From contig OU744448.1 of the NCBI GenBank assembly GCA_916610825.1, positions 24,652,761 through 24,716,760 on the forward strand: DNA of 64,000 nt, given 5' to 3'. This document shows, in pieces, positions 30,699 to 48,053 of the stretch; the stretch's first letter is position 1; every line of letters starts with the position of its first letter. The position numbers and the translations under genes are program-made. This DNA is from Haliclystus octoradiatus (Eukaryota; Cnidaria; Staurozoa; Stauromedusae; Haliclystidae). Below the pieces are notes generated by a model. It had not been told where the DNA came from. It was given only the letters and a program-made list of their open reading frames with translations, and ran no database searches.

Positions 30699-30716
30699 GG
30701 TATATATATATATGCA
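30699..30716 (+). promoter_or_regulatory. TATA element of the + strand arginine-rich peptide gene
   Basis: A TATATATATATATG run lies about 70-80 bases before the probable first donor site GGGTAAGAAG (donor at 30783). A leader exon of roughly 30730-30782 would then splice to the acceptor at 31008, directly before the ATG. The run could also be a simple TA repeat. Confidence 0.45.
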
Positions 30717-31008
30717 TGTACTGGTAGAAGAATTAATTCAGTAATATTTTGCACCAAGAGGTGGAGGATACAAATATTCAGGGTAAGAAGATCTTATAAT
30801 TTTACAGTATTGCTTACGATCAGACTATCAGTAGAGTTTTTCCGTGATTGGATATAAAGGTTATAAATTATCTAACTGGGCATTAATTTACTGTCATTTC
30901 TTGCAATCTTAGTTAATTGATCAACTGATCGATGTTCTCGCAATGTTCCACAACTGACAATGACTAATGTTCCAATATTGACACTTTCTATTTTATTTCA
31001 TATTTCAG

Positions 31009-33849
31009 ATGAAGTTGACGCTGCTAATGTTGGTACTCTTTGGAGTTGCACTGACTATCGCTGGTGAGTTACTATCACTAAAAATTATTATTGTGTGTGT
31101 GTAATTTTCTTTTACTTCGTAATTTTATTGTAAATACAACCACATGAGCTTATATGCCCGTTTGCGTGGGAACGAAGGACTGGACAGCAGTCCCATTTAA
31201 ATACATCTAATTGAAATTACAATGAGCTTTTATTACATCAAAGTTACATACAGATAAAATATCAATTCATGAACCGACGAGGAATCGAACCTCGGTTTCC
31301 CGCAAGGACTACAGGCATTCTGCCATCATGCTGCCATTGAACTACCGGTCCATAAATTATTACCTTGCTTTAAAAAATTAAATCCTATATTTCAACTTTC
31401 ATCAATGATATGCGTGGTGTACAAAATACGGATGGCACATATAGGGCTCATATGGAGATCTTCTACTTCATGATTGATGAGCGCAAAGCCTCGCTCCTTC
31501 GTTTGACATTCTCTCGAAACTCGTGCATAAAAACCATCCTGCGAATCAAACCATGAAATAATATGTTGATTTTATTTGTACAGAGATTTACACATCTAAA
31601 AGATCACTTTGATTTTTTAATGATTGGAATTTATTAATTCAAAAGACAACATCATCATCATTTATTCAGAAACCTTTATGTTATACATAACATTTTTTCA
31701 AAGGACTGATACATAGCTAAGTTAACAGGAAAACAGATATTAAGTAAAAAAAGGTTTGAATAACAGGAAAGAGCGGTAAGTATAAAGTATATTAAGAACG
31801 TAAGTGCTTCTGAAGGAGACATTTGAAAGTAGGCCTGCTTTGGACTGCCTTTATTGCAGACGGTAGATCGTCCCACTTATGCGCACCAGCATCTTGAAAT
31901 GAATGACGATGGCTCGACTTGATGTAAATGTCATTGTGGGCGTGAGATCTTGTTCTGGTGGAATACAGCAGTTGGAAAACGTGTCATTTAAAGGCATAAA
32001 ATTGGCCATCGCGCATTGCGGGCTCAAACTAGTGTAGTGAATCGCAAAGGAAGATCGCAAAGGCCGCCCATTCGCCCATTTTCGAGTGTGTTATAAAAAC
32101 CCTCCTTTCTATATTAACAATCACTATCAATGTTGAAATCTCGTTGGTTACGTGAAAAGAAAACTTTATTGGTATTTCGTCAAAATACATTTTATTTATT
32201 CATAATCCAGAATTGTGGAGTCTACGGGAAAATCATGAAGTAGAAATCATTGTATCTCACATAACATCTTTCGATAAGTTCAAATACCTATAATAATATA
32301 TCACCAATTACATCCATCGTAACATATTTCTACTTTTTTGTAGTTAACAATGAAGAAGATGAAAATTACGAGGATCAAGAAGTGAAAGATCAGCCAGGTA
32401 ACAATTTCTTACAAAGCAAATATGCATTTTTAGATACAATAATTTATAATGTAATTTGTTTGATTTTTGTTTTTTGTTTTTAAGTAAATTATTTTAAGTA
32501 ATTTGTAAGCTTGCATTATTGAAAATATAGTAATACGTACATCTGAATATTGCAAATCCAAAAAACCCCAAGCTGTAACTTTTTTTAATTACAGGGAGCA
32601 CATTTGATTTGATTTTATGATCCAAATACTTTTAGTGGTTGCCATGGAATGTCGTGAGTTGTCTTTGAATAACTAGCAAATCACGTGGTACAAATCCGGA
32701 AATCATGACTCGCAATCATGATTCACTAGGGATTATTAGTTAATTAAGATTAATAAAATATTAATTATCATATTTGATTGATTCGTAGATGATGATATGC
32801 AAGAAAACCAGGAAAATGAAGCAGGTAGGAATTCACATTGATCTATCTATATAATTCTTGTTGAATATTTTCCACTAAAGAATTGAAACAAAGGTGTGGC
32901 AAGAGCACTTTACTGTAACTCGAAGGTCATGATGTTCTAATATTTGACCCCCACCCCCCCCCCCCCGCTGTACGCAACCGTACTGTACTGACAGTTTTGC
33001 AATCCCTCTCCACATTTTTACGAATTTTGTGTTTGTTGTTTCTGGAAATATGCAAATGCAATCAATTTAAAAAAAACGCAAATTTTCACGATTGGAATAT
33101 GAATTTACAACCTTTTACTTTTTTTGCAATTAAAATCGATTTTAGTCATCGATTAATAAATTGTTTCAAAATATGCTACAGAAATAGTCAAGATGACTTT
33201 ACATACTTTTGATGATTGGCATCCCCTCCAATGTACACAGCTGTTTCGCTTTTGATTAACCCACTCACCCTCGGTTGAGTACGTGCTTTATGGATTGTCC
33301 CTAAGGATGCTCTTACCTCGTCATGGTTTTCTTTCTATATTATGCTCTGTTTTACCAAAGATTGAGCACTCTCACATGTGTTTACCTCATGTTATGATAT
33401 TATATTGGCTACTAGTCTAGTTTATAGTAATGGTTCCACGCCGTAGCGATCATGAGGTGATTTAATCTATGAAAGCAAATGTGGTGCATTCTACCCTCAA
33501 AACCTAGATAAGCAAGTTAGTAGAAATAAAAGGTATAACATTTATTTTCACAAATTGACGAATGATAAATAAATAAGAAATACTTTACGCATGCTTATCA
33601 AAAGTGAAATTGAAAATAATTAAGCATTCTGTCAAAAAGCAAGAACATAGGGTTATAAGATTTGAAATTTATAGATCCGATTTAAAACAAACTATTAATT
33701 ATATAATATACATTATTCGTTCAAAATTTTCACCTTTAGATGAATCAGATCCAAAAGCATTCTTTTGGGGGCGAAGACGTCGCAGAAGATACTATCGTCG
33801 CTACCGTCGCTTCTTTTACCAACGTCGTCGCCGTTATGGCAAGAAATAA
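31009..33849 (+). CDS. Arginine-rich secreted peptide precursor, 84 aa, 4 exons
   Basis: Exons 31009-31063, 32344-32397, 32789-32824 and 33740-33849; all introns GT-AG and phase 1; 255 nt in total. Residues 1-18 (MKLTLLMLVLFGVALTIA) form a signal peptide. Residues 19-54, from two symmetric mini-exons and the start of exon 4, are strongly acidic: 17 Asp/Glu against 2 Lys. Residues 55-84 are the presumed mature peptide, with 14 Arg and 2 Lys and no acidic residue. It starts AFFWG, then six Arg, then YYRRYRRFFYQ, four Arg and YGKK. The final GKK fits the signal for C-terminal amidation once the lysines are trimmed. The layout (signal, anionic propiece, cationic aromatic-rich peptide) is that of many antimicrobial peptide precursors, so a host-defence role is the best inference. 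It is not similar to any family I can name. An AATAAA follows at 33924. A nuclear, protamine-like role is less likely because of the signal peptide. Confidence 0.82.
31271..31351 (-). repeat. tRNA-like sequence (pseudo-tRNA or SINE head) in intron 1
   Basis: Read on the minus strand, GGACCGG and TCGGTTC form a 7-bp acceptor stem with G-T pairs. Box A (TAGTTCAATGGCAG) and box B (GGTTCGATTCC, at 31281-31291) match pol III consensus. The D arm holds an 8-base near-duplication (ATGGCAGC/ATGGCAGA) and the anticodon loop lacks U33, so it is not a working tRNA. It may be the head of a SINE extending to about 31140. Confidence 0.55.
31648..32075 (-). mobile_element. LINE 3' end, copy B
   Basis: Better preserved than 5127-5690. 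The minus strand reads NDIYIKSSHRHSFQDAG, then HKWDDLPSAIKAVQSRPTFK, a typical LINE ORF2 C-terminal tail. A stop and a 3' untranslated part follow, ending in AAATGATGATGATG. It lies in intron 1 of the + strand arginine-rich peptide gene. A short piece of the same 3' end occurs at about 27556-27640. Confidence 0.65.
32949..32967. repeat. Poly-C tract
   Basis: A run of C with one A interruption and a terminal CCCCCCCCCCCCGC, unusual in this AT-rich region. In intron 3 of the + strand arginine-rich peptide gene. Confidence 0.8.
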
Positions 33850-46250: not shown

Positions 46251-46708
46251 AATATTCAAGGTAAGAAGATAATGCTCAATTTACCCCATTAGAGATCATT
46301 AGAAATATACACAAAGTCATGAATGATTGAATTGTATGTCTAAGTCGCTTAAATTATTACATTTTGCATTAAGAATATCGTGATAACGTTTTCGTAAATA
46401 TTGATGCAACACTACAAATTTGAATTAGTGCTCAGTAATATTATAAATAACAAAACAAACAGAAATTCATAATTACAGGTCATCTCCATTTGTATATCTA
46501 GTAGCAGTACTATATCCGCGTTGCTGGGTTACAGTAATGCAGAAACAAACAAAAAGACAATACTATCAATATGGAGGATATAGAATTATATAGGTAGAAA
46601 ATAAATCTCTAATCTAATTATACTAAAACATATACTTTTTATACTAAAACAGAAAATAAAATAAAATCATTCAATATACATGATTCTCTCTTCCTTCTAC
46701 GATTGCAG

Positions 46709-48053
46709 ATGAAGTTGGCTTTATACTTATTCTAGCTGTTTCTTTCTGGAGTTGCACTTGCCACGGCAGGTAAATTATTTACTCATATATACTGATATTA
46801 ACTAACTATAGAGTGATATGTCCTGCACGAAATGATTATTAATTAAGACGTATTGAAAAACAGCAAAAGCTCTACTGTATCTATATTGGGGGCATTCAAA
46901 TGAGCATCTGGTATGTTAATTTTTAGAATCTATAATTGATTCTTTAGATAAATAATGTAAAGCTGTCCACACTTGTTTAGGTATAGTGCTCAATGATAAA
47001 TATCAGAGCTGTTATAGATTAATGAATAAAATGAGTGAAAAAGAGAGATGTCTCTTTTGACTCATTTTATTTATTGATCTAATTGATTCTTTAAATTTTT
47101 TGATACAATCAATGATTCCTTATTGCTTTTGGCACTATGCACAGCACAACATGGCAGCAGCTGTGCCGCGACTTCAATATGCAGCAAGGCAGCCAAATTA
47201 TATGTGTAGTAGGATATTCATTAGACGATGACTCAAGATAATCACGCAGTGGAGTTATCCACAGAATGAATGTATTAGTGCTAATATATTAGCCTACATA
47301 ACAAAGAGGCTAGACTTTATATTGATTATCCTTGTGATTATCACACACTATAGAAATCAAGGCAGCTAACTGTGCTGATGGTATAACATTTTCATATTTT
47401 CTTCTTTTTATATGAATATTCTTTTAATAAAGATGAAGCCAGTTATTCAGTGATTCAGTGAAGAGGATGGAAACCTGTTATTGGACGAAGGTTAGATAAA
47501 TACTATTTATTTAGAATAAAGTAATGATGATGTCAACTTTGCTTGTTCTTTTGAAAAGCCATGCAGCCCTCTTCCTCATTGTTGATAAATACATTTATAT
47601 CTGTATATGCCATGTAGTCATAGTTTTTCCCTTTCCATTAAGGTTAAGAAGATCACGTGACAAATTATGCAACATCATCAATGTCTGGGGGTACCTTCCA
47701 TTGCGATTCGCCACAGGGTCGTTCACAGAACTTTGGCAGAATGACCATAAAACATTTTAAATCATGAAGAGATACCCCAAATATATTCTAAAAAAGGTAG
47801 AGTTCTAGCTCTATACAAAAAAAAACAAGAAAAATTACCTAATTTTTTTATCAGAATTTTGAAAAAGGTGCCCACAATGTTAACATCTTCGATGTTCACA
47901 ACTTGACAAATCTCTCTTTTACTTTCAAGATGTCGCGGATAATATACCATTTAACGCTGGCGTCGTCGTCGTAGAGAGTCCACCTGTCGCCGATTTTTTG
48001 GCTGCTGTCGTCGTCGTCTTGGGAAATCGAATTTTCCAAAAGAAAGATCCTGA
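46709..48053 (+). pseudogene. Decayed arginine-rich peptide gene
   Basis: A leader-like exon ends at a donor in ATTCAAGGTAAGAAG (about 46250-46265), and an acceptor GATTGCAG precedes ATG at 46709. The signal exon (46709-46769) reads MKLALYLF, stop, LFLSGVALATA and is 6 bases longer than in the intact genes. The mature-type exon begins after TTTCAAG at 47930. Its phase-1 frame gives DVADNIPFNAG; a frame change is then needed to read four Arg, ESTCRRFFGCC, three Arg and a tail ending at TGA 48051-48053. The stop in the signal and the frame break make it non-functional as read. The acidic exons were not securely found. Confidence 0.7.
47222..47320. repeat. Interspersed repeat (first copy at 15686-15790)
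   Basis: GATGACTCAAGATAATCACG and GTGGAGTTATC match the copy in ERO1 intron 1. It lies inside the intron of the decayed peptide gene. Confidence 0.5.

Follow-up and report, generated by a model that had tools for sequence, protein, structure and literature searches.

Two arginine-rich genes in a 64,000-nucleotide stretch of the genome of the stalked jellyfish Haliclystus octoradiatus (the window, at 24.65-24.72 Mb of contig C4; the genome comprises 261.9 Mb in 33 contigs) probably belong to a large gene family whose products are secreted, amidated host-defence peptides of the antimicrobial type, made as precursors that would stay electrically neutral until their propiece is removed. This reading is based on a recurrent four-exon plan, on net charges that cancel to within 4 in 14/14 assembled precursors, on a gradient of selective constraint along the precursor, on glycine-type C-termini and Lys-Pro starts of the mature parts, and on the clustering of the genes together with dead copies. 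The Hydra arminins, which are tested antimicrobial peptides of the same plan and charge balance, point in the same direction. The window locus is itself a small outlier of the family. An initial annotation, made by a model from the DNA letters, had described a locus of secreted arginine-rich peptides with charge-matched acidic propieces; its interpretation is partly supported.

Gene structure in the window

The two intact genes lie on opposite strands, with dead relatives between and beyond them; the existence of both genes and of the dead copies is confirmed. Each gene runs from a signal-peptide exon through two acidic exons to a last exon that carries the Arg-rich part and the amidation signal. 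The features are listed below.

30699..30782, + strand: gene 1, non-coding 5' exon; donor after 30782, start as placed in the initial annotation
31009..31063, + strand: gene 1, signal peptide exon MKLTLLMLVLFGVALTIA
32344..32397, + strand: gene 1, acidic propiece exon 1
32789..32824, + strand: gene 1, acidic propiece exon 2
33740..33849, + strand: gene 1, last exon, with DESDP, the Arg/Tyr/Phe-rich mature part, a GKK end and the stop; AATAAA at 33924
44846..44853, - strand: gene 2, non-coding 5' exon, mapped at its 3' end only, ATTACAAG/GTAAG
44610..44664, - strand: gene 2, signal peptide exon MKLTLLIVLLFGAALAMA
42576..42608, - strand: gene 2, acidic propiece exon 1
41831..41884, - strand: gene 2, acidic propiece exon 2; weak acceptor AAAAAG
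41358..41497, - strand: gene 2, last exon, with the propiece end, the mature part ending in Gly and the stop; AATAAA at 41218 (minus strand)
38602..38656, - strand: dead copy 1, signal exon with an in-frame TAA; 89% identity to the gene 2 signal region
46709..46769, + strand: dead copy 2, signal exon with an in-frame TAG
47955..48053, + strand: dead copy 2, remnant of the Arg-rich last exon

Gene 1 specifies a product of 84 residues, with AG/GT at all coding exon borders, and gene 2 one of 93 residues. The donor context of the gene 1 5' exon, ATTCAGG/GTAAGAAG, recurs at 46254 in dead copy 2. All introns of both genes are in phase 1, so that the middle exons can be skipped with the frame intact. 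When the cut is set after Asp-Pro (DP), the net charges of propiece and mature part are -16/+17 for gene 1, whose mature part begins KAFFW, and -20/+18 for gene 2, whose mature part begins RLL. The initial annotation had counted -15/+16 and -19/+17, one residue away in each case, and had described mature parts of roughly half Arg; both genes bear this description out, at 45% and 56% Arg.

Stop-free six-frame stretches with at least 10 Arg per 25 residues number five in the 64 kb, and all five fall at these loci, in sense or antisense; no comparable Arg richness is seen elsewhere in the window. Since, in addition, other parts of the genome carry genes of the same plan, the loci cannot be ascribed to chance. 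In gene 2, an ATT/TTA microsatellite of about 1 kb (43450-44500) lies in the first coding intron, and genes 1 and 2 are separated by a reverse transcriptase remnant of the long interspersed element type (35603-36451, - strand; RVT_1 at 35.7 bits for the piece 35603-36160).

A genome-wide family

Last exons of this kind occur at no fewer than 42 places on five chromosome-size contigs (17 on C11, 15 on C4, 7 on C8, 2 on C10 and 1 on C1). This lower bound comes from DNA and protein searches of the genome followed by reading of the DNA, which covered 33 of the 42 places. The tally excludes one further copy at about C11:14.480 Mb, whose junction is degraded and whose final residues are not preceded by Gly. 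Near-identical counterparts of the gene 1 signal exon number 14 on C11 and 4 on C8, and the same acidic second exon lies within 1.5 kb of the signal exon in 8 of the 9 C11 loci examined; at one of the 14, C11:10.53 Mb, the signal exon is present and the later exons are unrecognisable across 4 kb. Clusters and dead copies are seen in the family, and decayed members beyond the window include those at C4:34.024, C4:34.116 and C11:14.527 Mb. The 'rapidly evolving defence locus' of the initial annotation thus stands as regards gene turnover with dead copies, while the window turns out to hold 2 of 40-odd loci and to be a small outlier of the family.

Fourteen precursors were assembled, twelve from C4, C10 and C1, one from C11 and one from C8. 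Eleven of the first twelve have four coding exons and the other has three, all with a conserved signal exon of 17-18 residues. The nine-residue third exon of the C11 model was placed by eye, a single acidic exon was found for the C8 model, and in the C10 copy the donor of the third exon is unusual and the C-terminus altered. The member on chromosome 1 carries its second coding exon in two near-identical copies (C1:36675624-36675819), a ready one-step gain of acidic charge.

A second Arg-rich secreted family lies on C8, at 19.36, 19.998 and 20.037 Mb, with the signal MKTQNILILLLLGICAIYA and FRRRYYRRRYF repeats rich in Tyr and Arg. One of its copies has an additional acidic spacer between two Arg-rich parts, and exon 1 of another ends in a stop.

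Charge matching and selection

In the 14 precursors the propiece bears a net charge of -11 to -24 and the mature part +11 to +24; added together, the two give -4 to +2. The charge matching that the initial annotation had noticed in two precursors therefore holds across the assembled set. The two charges are tightly correlated (r = -0.915, n = 14), and in 100,000 random re-pairings a mean squared sum this small never arose. Because paralogues are not independent, the permutation was repeated with reduced sets, giving p = 8e-5 for ten diverged members and 2.8e-4 for nine, although some dependence remains in these. The most acidic propieces (-24 and -23) accompany the longest mature parts, which contain many RRRLI-type units and carry +24.

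The mature parts were compared in 26 of the 33 last exons read (33902795, 17060014, 34024090, 34116227, 33931781, which is the same as 33924504, 14488376 and 14526755 were omitted). They start with KP in 21/26 and with KPW in 13/26, and end with G, GK, GKK or GRK in 25/26, GKK alone accounting for 14/26. The DPKP junction is retained in most members. Arg makes up 31-59% of the mature part in the 12 measured, and cysteine is absent from 13 of the 14 assembled mature parts, the C8 member having one. Blocks of at least three Arg are separated by hydrophobic pairs, an arrangement that gives no classical amphipathic helix. The hydrophobic moment, calculated for a helix (100 or 120 degrees) or a strand (170 degrees), reached |z| 2 against own shuffles in 0/26 mature parts.

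Pooled over 12 pairs that share members, the ratio of non-synonymous to synonymous proportions (pN/pS) is 0.10 for the signal, 0.46 for the propiece and 0.67 for the mature part. The genes are thus coding and constrained, the mature part least so. A graded pattern of this kind, rising from signal to propiece to mature part, is usual in defence peptide families.

A possible route to the mature peptide

The signal peptide would direct the precursor into the secretory pathway, and the acidic exons would balance the charge of the Arg-rich part for as long as the precursor is being made and stored. Neutralization of cationic peptides by acidic propieces has been described for sea-urchin antimicrobial peptides (PMC10608444), which have a similar acidic propiece and belong to another phylum; they are likened here by description, not by sequence. 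In cnidarians, N-terminal trimming is described as passing acidic and small residues and halting at X-Pro, and the amidation signal as Gly followed by basic residues (PMC6909153). Under these rules, mature peptides with a KP or DPKP start and an amide end are to be expected. Cleavage would take place near the D-P/K-P junction; the basic residues at the end would then be lost, and the glycine thus uncovered would serve for amidation. The released peptide, of some 20-45 residues, would consist of Arg blocks separated by Trp, Phe, Tyr, Leu or Ile. Its targets may be anionic surfaces of microbes, or nucleic acid, to which it would bind through charge and aromatic anchoring; since the Arg blocks yield no classical amphipathic helix, this appears the more natural binding mode.

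Similarity searches and known peptides

A Pfam scan of both window precursors gave nothing above the cut-offs, and in the same scan the cathelin domain of cathelicidins (PF00666) was not matched up to E = 1. Gene 1 alone retrieved nothing at E <= 10 from UniRef, NR or metagenome proteins, nor did a family profile built without arminin (scoring was limited to the 8000 candidates with the most words in common). Against the PDB, gene 1 gave a single weak match at chance level (E 0.14), and one C8 precursor had no match among phage records. Homology to a nuclear or structural family, which the initial annotation had named as one outcome that would count against it, was looked for in the protein searches and none was found. 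The literature searches, made over listings and passages of papers, turned up no account of the family and no described antimicrobial peptide family for Staurozoa. Four of five family peptide strings were unmatched in the literature; RRRYFRRR matched a single paper, which deals with a porcine circovirus protein and was judged unrelated by its title. Three predicted antibacterial candidates from Staurozoa appear in an in-silico study (PMC11820242), known here by description and not by sequence.

The six-cysteine framework of ShK- and defensin-type peptides is absent, both window precursors containing zero Cys, and a Cys-rich antimicrobial peptide was rejected on this ground. Aurelin and the ShK-type peptides are likewise secreted cnidarian defence peptides, but they have a Cys-rich fold, and no sequence relation to the Arg-rich family was seen. 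A small secreted-peptide gene of ShK-like appearance lies about 20 kb away in the window (9609-11731, + strand), with the signal exon MKVALLMIVLLGIALSVSA and a six-cysteine last exon that scores 17.7 bits against the ShK model (cut-off 20.9); its middle exons are provisional.

Relationship to the Hydra arminins

That the sequences could be placed in no named peptide family, as the initial annotation had it, holds for Pfam; a named look-alike nevertheless exists. Arminins are a tested antimicrobial peptide family of Hydra. They have a signal of about 18 residues, an acidic propiece of about 39 residues and an Arg-rich cationic C-terminus, the order found in 14/14 Haliclystus precursors. Arminin 1a and 1c are balanced at -13/+12 and -13/+11, like the Haliclystus family. 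The arminin junction D-A-KPW compares with D-P-KPW in the Haliclystus family, and arminin has the GKK end as well; among the 26 Haliclystus mature parts, KPW is the start of 13 and GKK the end of 14. Arminin paralogues are likewise clustered (PMC10945409). The arminin mature part differs in its long hydrophobic C-terminal half (VAPYIPFVVKTV) and its few Arg blocks.

A query that included the arminin 1a mature part as one row retrieved exactly two proteins from UniRef/NR, arminin 1a and 1c (E 2.8e-3 and 7.8e-3), a result that is partly circular because arminin 1a was itself in the query. With a HMMER profile built without arminin, arminin 1a scores 21.9 bits. This score was reached by 0/500 full shuffles, 2/500 within-segment shuffles and 27/500 shuffles in which KPW and GKK were kept; when shuffling was confined to signal plus propiece or to the mature part, the counts were 22/500 and 3/500. 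Profile-profile comparison with HHalign, again with arminin left out of the family profile, gave a probability of 89-91%. Here shuffles did as well in 0/100 cases within segments, in 1/100 with MK kept, in 15/100 with the junction and ends kept, in 0/100 for the mature part and in 6/100 for the signal.

In global alignment of the mature parts, 0/400 full shuffles were as good and 1/400 with KPW kept; with both ends kept the figure was 90/400, so that the arminin interior is no closer to the Haliclystus family than are shuffles. Six other antimicrobial peptides fell within one standard deviation of their own shuffles in this alignment. For the signal alone, with M and K kept, 74/1000 and 73/1000 shuffles were as good. 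A direct search of the Haliclystus genome with arminin 1c gave nothing at E <= 1.

As judged from these comparisons, the likeness to arminins exceeds what plan and composition account for, and its seat appears to be the D-x-KPW junction together with the GKK end, with a weak contribution from the signal. Distant homology is plausible; the likeness could also come from convergence under common rules of processing. Arminins have been published as restricted to Hydra, with no homologues in other animals, Hydractinia and Clytia included, and as probably of de novo origin (PMC10945409). Tentatively, and with a little less confidence than would be needed to favour the idea over its contrary, we suggest that arminins may instead represent, in Hydra, an old family of Medusozoa and may not have arisen de novo some 200 million years ago. 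That family would have more than 40 loci in Haliclystus, and its hallmark would be enforced electroneutrality, not a fold: acidic and Arg-block exons would gain and lose charge jointly, holding every precursor close to zero and leaving the mature peptide free to vary.

Weighing the alternatives

Several points weigh against a host-defence function. The family is known here from genomic sequence. No dibasic convertase site is found at the propiece/mature junction, and the mature parts lack the amphipathic helix or strand signal that many antimicrobial peptides have. The third coding exon of gene 2 has a poor acceptor, and its skipping would leave about -9/+18 (hand count). The second C8 family is less well balanced, with charge sums of -3 and -6 (exon borders by eye). 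Finally, the best Pfam match, at 17 bits against a cut-off of 25.1, is to conotoxin propeptides, over the signal and acidic part.

This last match, far under its cut-off as it is, would suit a cytolytic venom peptide from cnidocytes or glands, as would the multigene organization with a conserved signal and a variable mature part. The near-absence of cysteine and the failure to find any known toxin relative render such a function highly improbable. A secreted structural or adhesive polycation, whose acidic and basic halves would form a complex coacervate in stalk glue, mucus or cnidocyst packing, fits the extreme and balanced charge, the Tyr/Arg-rich members such as gene 1 and the sessile habit of stalked jellyfish, which live fixed to seaweed (PMC9975415). 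It is nonetheless unlikely: the products are very short, their ends are almost always of the amidation type, and the mature parts diverge among paralogues under an unchanging signal. Both halves, moreover, would be retained in a coacervate, yet most members keep a DPKP junction.

An X-Pro start and an amidated end are in the style of cnidarian neuropeptides (PMC6909153), and one Hydra neuropeptide is antibacterial (PMC5614986). A neuropeptide or other signalling precursor is however very unlikely, as 14/14 models contain a single peptide, where the criterion of PMC6909153 is at least three similar copies with GR/GKR sites; the high Arg share and the strong divergence of paralogues also argue against it. 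On the single copy this candidate was rejected. A nuclear basic protein, protamine- or histone-like, is compatible with the Arg blocks taken by themselves, but it is extremely unlikely given the conserved hydrophobic N-terminal signal exon, for which it was rejected, the amidation-type ends and the lack of a Pfam match above cut-off. A vertebrate or blood-cell setting was rejected as the genome is that of a cnidarian; the blood cells proposed as a tissue in the initial annotation are wrong for the same reason. A secreted host-defence peptide precursor remains the probable identity of the family.

Other features of the window

The nearest recognisable housekeeping gene is represented by an exon of a Paf1 transcription-complex gene (60691-60939, + strand; PF03985, 26.3 bits). 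Stretches resembling transfer RNA were noted by eye at 9720-9800 and 31271-31345; ARAGORN, run with bacterial settings, reported no transfer RNA in the window.

Biological significance

The genes described here would provide a large candidate antimicrobial peptide family for Staurozoa. The match in charge between separately encoded exons is a clean example of compensatory evolution within a precursor, and one that can be counted; the idea that an acidic propiece silences a cationic peptide becomes testable over dozens of natural variants. The layout of Arg blocks and aromatic residues offers a simple natural set for the study of non-amphipathic antimicrobial peptides. If the link with arminins is true, these would not be Hydra orphans, and a textbook example of de novo, genus-restricted genes would become an old family missed by similarity searches.

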